From assembly GCA_018056685.1 (NCBI GenBank), contig JAGPFC010000003.1:62001-126000 (forward strand): 64,000 nt of DNA, read 5' to 3'. Below the pieces are notes generated by a model, which ran no database searches, was not told the origin of the DNA, and saw only the letters and a program-made list of their open reading frames with translations. Source of the DNA: Smithella sp. (GTDB taxonomy: Bacteria > Desulfobacterota > Syntrophia > Syntrophales > Smithellaceae). A program made the translations under genes and the position numbers. Shown piece by piece: positions 484 through 62,470 of this stretch; positions within the stretch are counted from its first letter, which is position 1; each line of letters opens with the position of its first letter.

Positions 484-516
484 TTGACAAAACCGAAAAT
501 GGTTGTATATTACAAC
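484..516 (+). promoter_or_regulatory. Promoter and palindromic operator of the marR-hgcAB locus
   Basis: A -35 TTGACA (484-489) is followed after 16 bases by TATATT (506-511). A perfect inverted repeat, GTTGTA-TAT-TACAAC (502-516), covers the -10. It ends one base before the ATG at 518, so a transcript starting about 7 bases after the -10 would be almost leaderless. A dimeric MarR repressor bound here would block its own promoter; autoregulation is inferred. Confidence 0.65.
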
Positions 517-517
517 T

Positions 518-979
518 ATGTTGAAGAAGAAAAAAGAAAATGCAACAGATTTAATGGATGTGCTGGGCGGTCTTGCGCAGGTCATGCGTTCCTGCTGTCG
601 GGATGAGGCTTTTTGCGAAGGGGTAACCTTTCATCAGTTCATGATTCTTGATGCCGTGGCCAGGGAGAAAGAATTACCTATGGCGGACTTGCACAAACTG
701 CTTGCTGTGGAAAAAAGCACCACCACACGGTTGGTCAATCCTTTAATCAGGAAGGGGCTTGTCACAAGAGAAATGGCGGCCCATGATTCCCGGGCGATTA
801 AACTCGTCCTGACCGTTAAAGGCAGAGAAACCCACCAAAAGGTTCAATTATGCTTGGCGGATTTTTTTCAGAGAGCGCTGGGAAACATGTCGGAAAAGAA
901 AAGAACCGACGTTTTGCAATCGGTCAAAATATTTATAACGGCTGTAAAAAATTCATCGACTGACCGCGGGTGTTGTTAG
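518..979 (+). CDS. MarR-family regulator, cysteine-rich, upstream of hgcAB
   Basis: This 153-residue protein has the MarR winged-helix layout: recognition region around residues 55-80 (LHKLLAVEKSTTTRLVNPLIRKGLV) and the wing DSRAIKLVLTVKG at 90-102. I chose the ATG at 518 because an in-frame TTG at 503 lies inside the promoter. It has six cysteines, including vicinal pairs at 26-27 and 152-153 plus Cys33, unusually many for MarR and suggestive of thiol, metal or metalloid sensing. It lies 85 bases before hgcA on the same strand, so it may control and be cotranscribed with the mercury-methylation genes. That role is inferred. Reported hgcAB-linked regulators that I know of are ArsR-like. Confidence 0.85.
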   Translation: MLKKKKENATDLMDVLGGLAQVMRSCCRDEAFCEGVTFHQFMILDAVAREKELPMADLHKLLAVEKSTTTRLVNPLIRKGLVTREMAAHDSRAIKLVLTVKGRETHQKVQLCLADFFQRALGNMSEKKRTDVLQSVKIFITAVKNSSTDRGCC

Positions 980-1038
980 GGTATTTTGAAAGGTACCATT
1001 CTCACTTGGAGCTGCACGTGGGATAATTCACCTTACAA

Positions 1039-1064
1039 ATTTCAGTTCACTACGTTTCTGAAAT
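1039..1064 (+). promoter_or_regulatory. Hairpin immediately before the hgcA start
   Basis: ATTTCAG (1039-1045) and CTGAAAT (1058-1064) form a perfect 7-bp stem with a 12-base loop ending directly before the ATG at 1065. No clear Shine-Dalgarno sequence is visible. The hairpin could limit initiation at 1065, make the in-frame ATG at 1077 the true start, or be a second regulator site. Confidence 0.4.
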
Positions 1065-2213
1065 ATGAGTTTCATTATGGAAAAAATTGCTCTTCCCATC
1101 ATTCCGGAACACGCAAATTGCTGCGGCAGTATTGTGACAGCAGCATCGGAAAATGCCGTGCCTGCATTGAATCAGTCTTTTGTTGTCGGTACTGTGGAGA
1201 CACCAGCGGGCAGATTGCCGCGGGTGTCTTCAGAACTTGTCCGGCAGGATCGCTGGGGCGGCATGAAAGCGCGCTGGGGCGTGGGACGCATGGAATACAA
1301 AGTCGATCCCGGGCTTTACGCGCTGGGCACACCGGATGAACGTTCTCCGGTTTTTGTTTCCGCCAATTACAAGATGAGCTTTGACCTTTTGCGGCAGTCG
1401 CTGACAGGGCGCTCCGGTTGGATTCTGGTGCTGGATACGAGGGGAATCAATGTCTGGTGCGCTTCGGGCAAGGGGACTTTTGGCACGGAGGAACTGATCA
1501 GACGGATTGAACTGAGCGGGCTGAAAAAAATTGTCAGTCATAGAAAATTAATTTTGCCTCAATTGGGCGCACCGGGAGTCGCTGCTCACACGGTCAAAAA
1601 GCTTTCGGGTTTTCATGTTCAATACGGGCCGATTCGTGCGGAAGATTTGCCGGCTTATCTCGATGCCGGTTTGAAGGCAACAGATGAAATGCGGATAAAA
1701 ACTTTTCCTTTAAAAGAAAGAGCCGTGCTCATTCCCATCGAACTGATCGGAGCGGTGAAACCGTTGCTGATTCTGATGGTGACTTTTTTTGCAATAAGCG
1801 GCTTCGGCGGCCCTGCCGGATTTTGGGATAACGCGGCTGGCATCGGTGTATTCGCTGTTTTTGCTCTGTTGAGTGCTGTCATCGGCGGCACCGTGCTCAA
1901 TCCGCTCTTACTGCCTTATCTTCCGGGGCGTGCCTTTACGATCAAAGGCTTTTCCGTAGGCCTTGTTGTGACGCTGATGCTGCTTTATCTGCGCGGTATG
2001 GATTTGTCGGCGTGGCCGGGTAGGCTGGAAACCCTGGCGTGGCTGTTGATCATTCCCGCCATATCCGGGTATCTGGCCATGAATTTTACCGGATGTTCCA
2101 CCTATACATCTTTGTCGGGCGTAAACAAGGAAATGCGCTGGGCTCTGCCGCTGGAAATCACCTGCTTTGCCGTGGGAATTTTTATGTGGCTGGGCGCGCT
2201 GTTGATGGCTTAG
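1065..2213 (+). CDS. hgcA: HgcA, corrinoid protein for mercury methylation
   Basis: HgcA carries a methylcobalamin-like corrinoid and transfers its methyl group to Hg(II), making methylmercury. The N-terminal half is the soluble corrinoid-binding domain with the family signature on the cap helix, here NVWCASGK at residues 129-136. Cys132 is the expected cobalt-coordinating thiolate. Residues 225-382 contain about five hydrophobic segments, matching the membrane anchor of HgcA. The motif has Ser where the usual consensus N(V/I)WCA(A/G)GK has Ala or Gly. The chosen start adds about 40 residues before the motif relative to the ND132 protein (Cys93); ATG 1077 is an alternative. hgcB follows 9 bases later. 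The pair identifies the organism as a probable methylmercury producer. Confidence 0.95.
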   Translation: MSFIMEKIALPIIPEHANCCGSIVTAASENAVPALNQSFVVGTVETPAGRLPRVSSELVRQDRWGGMKARWGVGRMEYKVDPGLYALGTPDERSPVFVSANYKMSFDLLRQSLTGRSGWILVLDTRGINVWCASGKGTFGTEELIRRIELSGLKKIVSHRKLILPQLGAPGVAAHTVKKLSGFHVQYGPIRAEDLPAYLDAGLKATDEMRIKTFPLKERAVLIPIELIGAVKPLLILMVTFFAISGFGGPAGFWDNAAGIGVFAVFALLSAVIGGTVLNPLLLPYLPGRAFTIKGFSVGLVVTLMLLYLRGMDLSAWPGRLETLAWLLIIPAISGYLAMNFTGCSTYTSLSGVNKEMRWALPLEITCFAVGIFMWLGALLMA

Positions 2214-2222
2214 GAGTTGAGC

Positions 2223-2531
2223 ATGAAAAATCCGGTTTATCTGAAAAATGTTGTCACCCTGCAACTGGATGAAAATAAATGCACGGGTTGCGGGATGTGT
2301 CTGGATGTCTGTCCACATGAAGTGTTTAAGATGAATGGCAAGCACGTTGTCATCCGGAATCGCGATGCCTGCATGGAATGCGGCGCGTGCCGGCAAAACT
2401 GCCCGGCGAACGCCATTGCCGTGGAATCGGGTGTCGGTTGCGCCGCTGCGGTGATTAACGCCATGCTGGGGAGAGAGGGCGAATGTTGCTGCGGACCTTC
2501 CGACTCCGATGGCAAAGGCTGCTGTTGTTGA
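2223..2531 (+). CDS. hgcB: HgcB, 2[4Fe-4S] ferredoxin partner of HgcA
   Basis: HgcB is thought to reduce the corrinoid of HgcA and may pass on mercury. The 102-residue protein has two CxxCxxCxxxC clusters: Cys20, 23, 26, 30 and Cys50, 53, 56, 60. The family-specific Cys73 lies in ESGVGCAAA. The C-terminus is cysteine-rich, with CCC at 88-90 and CCC at 100-102, where HgcB normally has a vicinal pair. The start is ATG 2223: AGGAG at 2212-2216 overlaps the hgcA stop and sits 6 bases before it. Translation is probably coupled to hgcA. The gene converges on the dehydrogenase at 2552 with only 20 bases between. Confidence 0.96.
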   Translation: MKNPVYLKNVVTLQLDENKCTGCGMCLDVCPHEVFKMNGKHVVIRNRDACMECGACRQNCPANAIAVESGVGCAAAVINAMLGREGECCCGPSDSDGKGCCC

Positions 2532-2551: not shown

Positions 2552-3565
2552 TTATTCGTGGGGTTTGATGATGACCTTGATGGATTCCCGCCCGTCCGTC
2601 ACCAGTTGAAATCCTTTTACAATTTCATTCAGAGGCAGCCGGTGCGTAATCAGATCATCGACGGTGACATGGTGCCATTCGATTAATTTCATCGCTTCGA
2701 TGATGTCGGGCGGACCACAGTAGTAGGACGTAAGGATGGTGATTTCCTTCATCCAGAAATCATTGACGGGAACGGCCACTTTTTTATCCGGTGCGGGAAC
2801 GGCAAAGAGCACGATGGTGCCGCCCTTATCCACGCACGGCCAGGTCTGTTCGACCGCGGAATCGGCGGCGGCGCATAACAATACAACGTCCGCTTTCCGG
2901 CCGGTTATTTCAATCAGTTTTTCGGAAATATTATCCGCGGCGTCGATAACTTTATCGGCGCCCATCTGCCGGGCCATTTCCAGTTTGGTTTGATTGATGT
3001 CGGCAGCAATGATCCGGCATCCTTTTGTCCTCGCCAGTTTGATGTGCATCAGACCGGACATGCCGCAGCCGATGACCAGCACGGTTTGGCCTTTTTTTAC
3101 GCCGGCCAGTCTTTGCGCCCGGACGGCACAGGCGAGCGGTTCGATAAACGTGCTTTGATCATAGGTGATGTTGTCCGCAAGAAGATAGGTTCCGTTTTCG
3201 ATCAGGATTTCAGGAACCAGAATGTATTCGGAAAAACCGCCGGGCAGTCTTTCCTTGACTTCGGAACATTGCGGGTAGTGTCCGTTTTCACAATAATAGC
3301 ATTTCATGCAGGGCACTTTGGGAGCGATGAATACGCGATCGCCGGGCTTGTATTTTTTAACCGATTTGCCGACCAAGACAACCTGAGCGCCGACCTCGTG
3401 TCCCTGAATCAGCGGCGCCCGCGGGAGGCGGTACCATTCGACGATGTCACTGCCGCAGATACCGCAGGACAAGACCTTGACCAGCATTTCCCGGCTTTTG
3501 GGACGGGGGGTGGGAATGTCTTCGATGCGGATATCTCTGTTATTATACCAGTACGCGACCTTCAT
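2552..3565 (-). CDS. Zinc-dependent medium-chain dehydrogenase (alcohol/polyol type)
   Basis: This 337-residue enzyme belongs to the sorbitol/threonine dehydrogenase branch of the MDR family. The catalytic zinc site is visible as CGICGSD (Cys37) with GHE at 55-57, and a structural zinc loop CMKCYYCENGHYPQC follows near residue 90. The Rossmann nucleotide-binding glycines are in VIGCGMSGL. It should oxidise a secondary alcohol or polyol with NAD(P). I chose ATG 3565; the in-frame TTG at 3577 lies in the structured repeat. It lies downstream of the LsrF-type aldolase on the same strand, separated by that repeat, so the two may share a sugar or polyol pathway. The substrate cannot be read from sequence. 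Confidence 0.85.
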   Translation of the reverse strand: MKVAYWYNNRDIRIEDIPTPRPKSREMLVKVLSCGICGSDIVEWYRLPRAPLIQGHEVGAQVVLVGKSVKKYKPGDRVFIAPKVPCMKCYYCENGHYPQCSEVKERLPGGFSEYILVPEILIENGTYLLADNITYDQSTFIEPLACAVRAQRLAGVKKGQTVLVIGCGMSGLMHIKLARTKGCRIIAADINQTKLEMARQMGADKVIDAADNISEKLIEITGRKADVVLLCAAADSAVEQTWPCVDKGGTIVLFAVPAPDKKVAVPVNDFWMKEITILTSYYCGPPDIIEAMKLIEWHHVTVDDLITHRLPLNEIVKGFQLVTDGRESIKVIIKPHE

Positions 3566-3567
3566 AA

Positions 3568-3660
3568 TGAGACCCAAACTTCAGAAATAAAGTGCACTGA
3601 AGTTTGTTGGACGAATTATCCCGCGAGCTTCAGCGTGCGGGATTTGGGTTCTGTTTCATA
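3568..3660. repeat. Dispersed structured repeat, copy 1
   Basis: Two adjacent hairpins: AAACTTCA (3576-3583) with TGAAGTTT (3598-3605), 14-base loop; and ATCCCGC (3618-3624) with GCGGGAT (3637-3643). A diverged copy lies at about 62338-62470, where the first stem is AAATTTCA/TGAAATTT, again with a 14-base loop, so one base pair changed on both sides. Both copies end in a TTGGG-to-TTCATACC stretch. This copy overlaps the stop codon of the aldolase gene and may end or process its transcript before the dehydrogenase. Confidence 0.6.
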
Positions 3661-62337: not shown

Positions 62338-62470
62338 TGAGACTCAAATTTCAAAAACGAAGTACATTGAAATTTGTAAGTCAAACAATCCCGCACAGCG
62401 GAGGGTGTAAAGCCCCCTCAGCGTGCTGCGGAATAGTCTCCAAAGTTTGCTTTGGGATTCATACCCGTGA
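62338..62470. repeat. Dispersed structured repeat, copy 2
   Basis: Diverged copy of the element at 3568-3660. Stem 1 is AAATTTCA (62346-62353) with TGAAATTT (62368-62375) and a 14-base loop. A second, longer hairpin is built from GAGGG and CCCTC around 62401-62421. It ends just before the kinase start. Confidence 0.6.

Follow-up and report, generated by a model that had tools for sequence, protein, structure and literature searches.

Organization of the marR-hgcA-hgcB locus

The window, a 64,000-nucleotide stretch of Smithella sp. DNA taken from a metagenome-type assembly, carries a promoter followed by marR, hgcA and hgcB on its forward strand between positions 484 and 2531 (Table 1). The preceding gene stops at 409, upstream of the promoter, and the gene beyond hgcB is in the opposite orientation, so that the three genes stand alone. 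HgcA scores 462 bits against the NCBIfam equivalog NF040863 (cut-off 275), and HgcB scores 120.5 bits against NF040864 (cut-off 99). The cap-helix cysteine of HgcA is Cys132 in the motif NVWCASGK, numbered from ATG 1065; ATG 1080 may be an alternative start. HgcB contains two CxxCxxCxxxC motifs (cysteines 20/23/26/30 and 50/53/56/60), Cys73, and further cysteines at 88-90 and 100-102. By their sequences the two proteins qualify as an hgcAB mercury-methylation pair, and methylation of Hg(II) is predicted. An earlier note on this DNA had identified hgcAB by Cys132, Cys73 and the cysteine clusters of the HgcB tail, all of which are borne out, and had counted five membrane segments in HgcA, with which the hydropathy plot of the C-terminal half is compatible.

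Table 1 Coordinates of features at the marR-hgcA-hgcB locus in the window
Feature	Position	Strand	Basis
-35 hexamer TTGACA of the marR-hgcAB promoter	484..489	+	consensus match; family loci
Predicted operator GTTGTATATTACAAC, perfect inverted repeat enclosing the -10 box	502..516	+	conserved, single genome copy
-10 hexamer TATATT, ending 6 nt 5' of ATG 518	506..511	+	consensus match
marR, MarR-family winged-helix regulator, 153 aa, six Cys	518..979	+	PF12802, family alignment
marR-hgcA interval, mostly dispersed palindromic repeat	985..1065	+	~20 genome copies at E<1e-3
hgcA, corrinoid methyltransferase of mercury methylation	1065..2213	+	NF040863
hgcB, dicluster ferredoxin, Cys73 and C-terminal Cys clusters	2223..2531	+	NF040864

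The repeat between marR and hgcA has two further copies in the window (3563-3628 and 62338-62380), and related repeats occupy the same interval in some relatives, e.g. at loci L039 and L045. A candidate promoter or attenuator specific to hgcA within 980-1064 was rejected, as the stretch consists of this dispersed repeat, and an Rfam search for riboswitches or known RNAs gave no match upstream of hgcA. As a separate observation, HgcA has an N-terminal extension with CC or CxC in 38 of 46 cases of this MarR class (window 1065-1200, for example), and the extension of Spirochaetota HgcA (L272, L275, L276, L286) carries MGCGC. Such extensions perhaps have a role in mercury transfer.

Fold and cysteines of the MarR protein

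The window MarR matches PF12802 (47.7 bits, cut-off 27) and PF01047 (33.9 bits, cut-off 24.6), both MarR models, and gives no match to the ArsR model PF01022 (HTH_5). None of the NCBIfam equivalogs reaches its cut-off, the best being BilQ with 41 against 125 bits; the one OhrR model compared, NF052638, gives 27.7 bits, below its cut-off of 200. The gene had earlier been started at TTG 503; we prefer ATG 518 as the likely start because relatives keep this ATG. In an AlphaFold2 monomer model (pLDDT 83), helices are predicted at residues 2-27, 38-50, 55-62, 66-78 (the recognition helix), 100-121 and 126-147. The best Foldseek matches of this model are solved MarR proteins (E 1e-8), and the best PDB matches are approximately 18-27% identical to the window protein.

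The six cysteines counted in the earlier note are confirmed at positions 26, 27, 33, 112, 152 and 153. Four of them, C33, C112, C152 and C153, are near-invariant among members linked to hgcAB, being present in 50/50, 49/50, 47/49 and 43/49 proteins, respectively, and a C-terminal cysteine pair occurs in 48 of 50. Cys26 is found in 43 of the 50, while C27, kept in only 6/50 relatives, is a local feature and not a family trait. The invariance of C33 equals that of residues in the DNA-recognition helix. C26 marks the end of helix 1, with C33 just past it; C112 lies in helix 5, and C152 and C153 are located in the C-terminal tail. The dimer interface of MarR proteins is built from helix 1, helix 5 and the C-terminal helix. 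As the cysteines of the monomer model lie on or next to these elements, a thiol site between subunits is plausible. The conserved cysteine set expected of a metal(loid)-responsive repressor is present, and a response to metal(loid)s is predicted.

Promoter and predicted operator

The two promoter hexamers, separated by 16 nt, agree with the consensus at 11 of 12 bases. The exact 15-bp palindrome around the -10 box occurs once in the window, whereas a shuffled window yields about one match even with two mismatches permitted; searched as an exact pattern, it is also single-copy in the 3.19-Mb genome. With small variations allowed, the palindrome is kept at the start of marR in 57/58 loci, and the remaining locus has it with one further mismatch. 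The -35 box lies 12-14 nt 5' of the palindrome in 49/58 family loci. Aligned family promoters nearly all read TTGACA, 16-17 nt, TATNAT, with TATNAT central in GTTGTATNATACAAC and the ATG almost directly 3' of it; of 49 promoters, 34 have 2 nt and 11 have 5 nt between the palindrome core and the ATG. Given this spacing, the predicted transcription start coincides with the ATG or lies a few bases from it, which would give a leaderless mRNA.

Across 35 genomes searched, the exact palindrome was found at marR in all 14 marR-positive genomes and was absent from 20 of the 21 marR-negative ones; the promoter of genome G013, missing at first, was found at the end of a separate contig. Two same-genus genomes carry exact operator copies in promoter-like sequence beside transposase genes (L251 1500-1514 and L252 2735-2749).

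Conservation of marR beside hgcA

The occurrence of marR at hgcA was followed in two sets of genomes. The first comprised the window's genome and 59-60 relatives, 34 of which have HgcA above the cut-off. A MarR orthologue (45-76% identity, at least 136 bits) is encoded in 28 Syntrophales genomes, the window's own included, and lies directly upstream of hgcA on the same strand in 27 of them; in the 28th, the contig ends. For the second set, which partly overlaps the first, the family profile was run against 84,980 GTDB genomes. This search returned 54 marR loci: hgcA is the adjacent gene in 46, other genes adjoin marR in seven, and one locus stops within marR. Over 49 loci, the gap between the marR stop and the hgcA start has a median of 15 bp and is 31 bp or less in 36. 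At the 31 loci with both flanks, the marR-hgcAB unit is common to all (marR by selection), the upstream protein is common to 7% of locus pairs and the downstream protein to 18%. The flanks are thus mostly unshared, and the unit of conservation is marR-hgcA-hgcB.

Among 395 Desulfobacterota genomes, 114 have HgcA above the cut-off; a MarR match at E 1e-15 is present in only 16, in 13 of which it adjoins hgcA. The regulator is absent from about 100 of the 114 hgcA-positive genomes and hence is not needed for hgcAB in general; from these counts it is characteristic of the Smithella/Syntrophus lineage and of scattered others.

Together, these data bear on the remaining statements of the earlier note. 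Its palindromic promoter for the MarR gene holds at the level of the family, and conservation of marR beside hgcA, fixed beforehand as a test, was found in both sets. A separate hgcA promoter, which had been named as an outcome against the idea, is not evident in view of the short median gap and the repeat that fills the window's interval. The proposed route of hgcAB control through a thiol-rich MarR is therefore supported as to regulation, by conservation.

Other regulators at hgcA and known systems

In a genome of the same genus (G009), an ArsR protein (PF01022) stands at hgcA in place of MarR. A second, distant MarR class is found directly before hgcAB, mostly with a CCGVTLxQCH motif, in Spirochaetota (L271-L276, L278, L282, L286, L289) and Desulfobacterota (L150-L153); several of these loci have promoters of the TTGAC...GTTGTATNATACAA type, the same type as that of marR-hgcAB. 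We also observed AbrB/MazE-like proteins of ~90-120 aa upstream of hgcA at L120, L126, L137, L139, L169, L224 and L230, which carry cysteine clusters (CCKVES..., GEVCC). They resemble the 'archaeal toxin-antitoxin' regulator described in PMC10349881 and, instead of being antitoxins, may act as thiol sensors.

Cysteine-bearing local regulators of hgcAB are already known in the form of ArsR; here the predicted regulator is a MarR instead. An ArsR-like hgcAB regulator has been described in Pseudodesulfovibrio/Desulfovibrio (Goni-Urriza 2020 and Gionfriddo 2023, as cited in PMC7438021 and PMC10349881), where it is reported to be co-transcribed with hgcA, and experiments in P. mercurii ND132, as cited in PMC10349881, are reported to show ArsR control of hgcAB with arsenic-linked changes. 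As far as these citing papers convey it, the ArsR system resembles the window in having a one-component regulator gene, probably for a repressor, directly upstream of hgcA, and in the genus of the window ArsR holds the same place in G009. It differs in belonging to the ArsR/SmtB family (PF01022) and in its reported response to arsenic.

MarR genes upstream of hgcA are mentioned for Dethiobacter alkaliphilus and Geobacter daltonii in one sentence of PMC10349881. They share with the window the position of a MarR-family gene adjoining hgcA; that sentence does not describe cysteines, operator or family, and the two genes may belong to this subfamily or to the second, CCG-type class. An unnamed 'putative transcriptional regulator' is conserved upstream of hgcAB in 112 genomes (PMC7438021). 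Like the window MarR it directly precedes hgcAB, also in genomes from thawing permafrost; its protein family is not named, and, known here by description, it may or may not overlap the present MarR family. A search aimed at this regulator found five Myxococcota hgcA loci, one of them with ArsR. In open-access full text, we saw neither this MarR subfamily nor its operator or cysteines described, and nothing relevant turned up on MarR proteins that respond to arsenic or on structure 8xt8, the Hg-bound MarR of C. difficile. By this open-access search, the operator, the cysteine signature and the extent of the family appear to be unreported.

Family members away from hgcAB

Members that are not located at hgcAB keep the palindrome and mostly keep the cysteines. 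In the Spirochaetes locus L111, the gene that follows marR is arsM (342 bits, cut-off 263), which has a palindrome copy to itself; at L110 and L268 the neighbour is an arsM-like methyltransferase gene that scores under the ArsM cut-off and likewise has a separate palindrome. The Spirochaetes genomes of L110 and L111 each contain two exact copies of the palindrome and no more, one at marR and the other shortly before the methyltransferase gene. In the tree, the arsM-linked L111 is placed beside the hgc-linked L115 (support 99/50, the second value being weak), a placement that would be consistent with partner switching. A member in a Bacillota genome adjoins gshA/gshB. Other, more distant MarR relatives precede an ArsP_1 permease or lie in an arsenic island on a Deinococcus plasmid.

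Cysteines and operator can part company. L113 and L116 lack C33 or C112 and retain the operator, and L117 (3962-4411), near cytochrome bd genes, has lost all conserved cysteines and kept the palindrome, which makes it a natural control for loss of the sensor. The idea that the operator requires the cysteines was rejected on account of L117. A flavodoxin/ferredoxin-type gene in the genome of L113 (Bacillota) is preceded by two GTTGTATAATACAAC copies with a spacing of 42 bp (L297 3351-3407) and is possibly a further target of the regulator.

A proposed mechanism and its alternatives

We infer co-transcription, binding, repression, the sensing role of the cysteines and the ligand from the promoter, the operator and its conservation, the gene order, the conserved cysteines and the MarR fold. 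On this basis the MarR protein is probably an autoregulated repressor of a marR-hgcA-hgcB operon that is released by a thiol-binding metal(loid). The three genes would be transcribed as one operon from the promoter at 484-511. A MarR dimer would bind the palindrome and cover the -10 box, and the bound protein would thereby block RNA polymerase, repressing marR together with hgcAB. Binding of a thiophilic metal(loid), such as As(III), a methylated arsenical, Hg(II) or similar, at the cysteines would then alter the dimer so that the operator is released.

The same architecture could serve a redox sensor of the OhrR/MexR type, in which oxidation of cysteines frees the operator and hgcAB answers oxidative stress. 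OhrR, MexR, MgrA/SarZ and E. coli MarR (which responds to Cu via Cys80) resemble the window protein as winged-helix dimers with palindromic operators and cysteines as the likely sensor; the profile and fold matches OhrR, MexR, MgrA and SarZ are oxidation sensors or have oxidised forms, and the neighbours of L117 (cytochrome bd genes) and L114 (glutathione synthesis genes, which it precedes) would suit such a role. The cysteine positions of these proteins differ from those of the window MarR, however, and the pattern of helix 1 end, helix 5 and C-terminal Cys-Cys departs from that of OhrR in particular. Moreover, the L117 protein has none of the conserved cysteines, and the other neighbours handle metal(loid)s. 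We thus consider oxidation sensing unlikely and favour a thiophilic metal(loid) as the cue on the strength of gene context, namely hgcAB, arsM, the ArsP_1 permease and arsenic island of distant relatives, and the ArsR of G009; the link to arsenic draws on few loci.

It is quite unlikely that MarR acts on itself alone or on an unlinked gene, with hgcAB read through or served by its own promoter. Spacings of 64-336 bp between marR and hgcA in some genomes would leave room for this, but the gap is short at most loci. A weak sigma70-like match at 999-1027 (9/12) could be an hgcA promoter, yet about two such matches are expected by chance in the region, and the longer gap of the window is dispersed repeat rather than conserved promoter DNA. 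In two genomes, additional copies of the operator next to transposase genes would allow for an unlinked target, against which stands the uniqueness of the exact operator in the window's genome. An activator, or a sensor of a non-metal small molecule with purely structural cysteines, seems to us very improbable. Many MarR proteins do bind phenolic ligands, and some family members lie beside a glycyl-radical enzyme and other enzymes; an operator placed on the -10 box nevertheless fits repression and not activation, and structural cysteines sit poorly with a C33 as invariant as the recognition helix.

Returning to the metal(loid)-released repressor, a broader role can be put forward more tentatively. 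An undescribed cysteine-sensing MarR subfamily with a single operator (GTTGTAN3TACAAC, lying on the -10 box of a leaderless mRNA) might control metal(loid) methylation generally. Its targets would be arsM or arsM-like genes in Spirochaetes, and in Syntrophales and other groups they would be hgcAB; we regard this as possible and short of probable.

Significance

Neither the inducer of hgcAB nor the purpose of HgcAB is settled, and methylmercury output hinges on both. Smithella-type syntrophs were the dominant hgcA-expressing Deltaproteobacteria in bog samples (PMC7438021). With a defined regulator, an operator and candidate sensor residues, the inducer of hgcAB can be sought in a brief set of in vitro and reporter assays. 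That hgcAB repeatedly occurs with cysteine-bearing regulators of unrelated families (MarR, ArsR, AbrB/MazE-like) suggests that control by thiophiles has been selected convergently. If the subfamily does govern metal(loid) methylation at large, hgcAB would be cued by an arsenical or another thiophile rather than mercury, and this would have a bearing on the native role of hgcAB.
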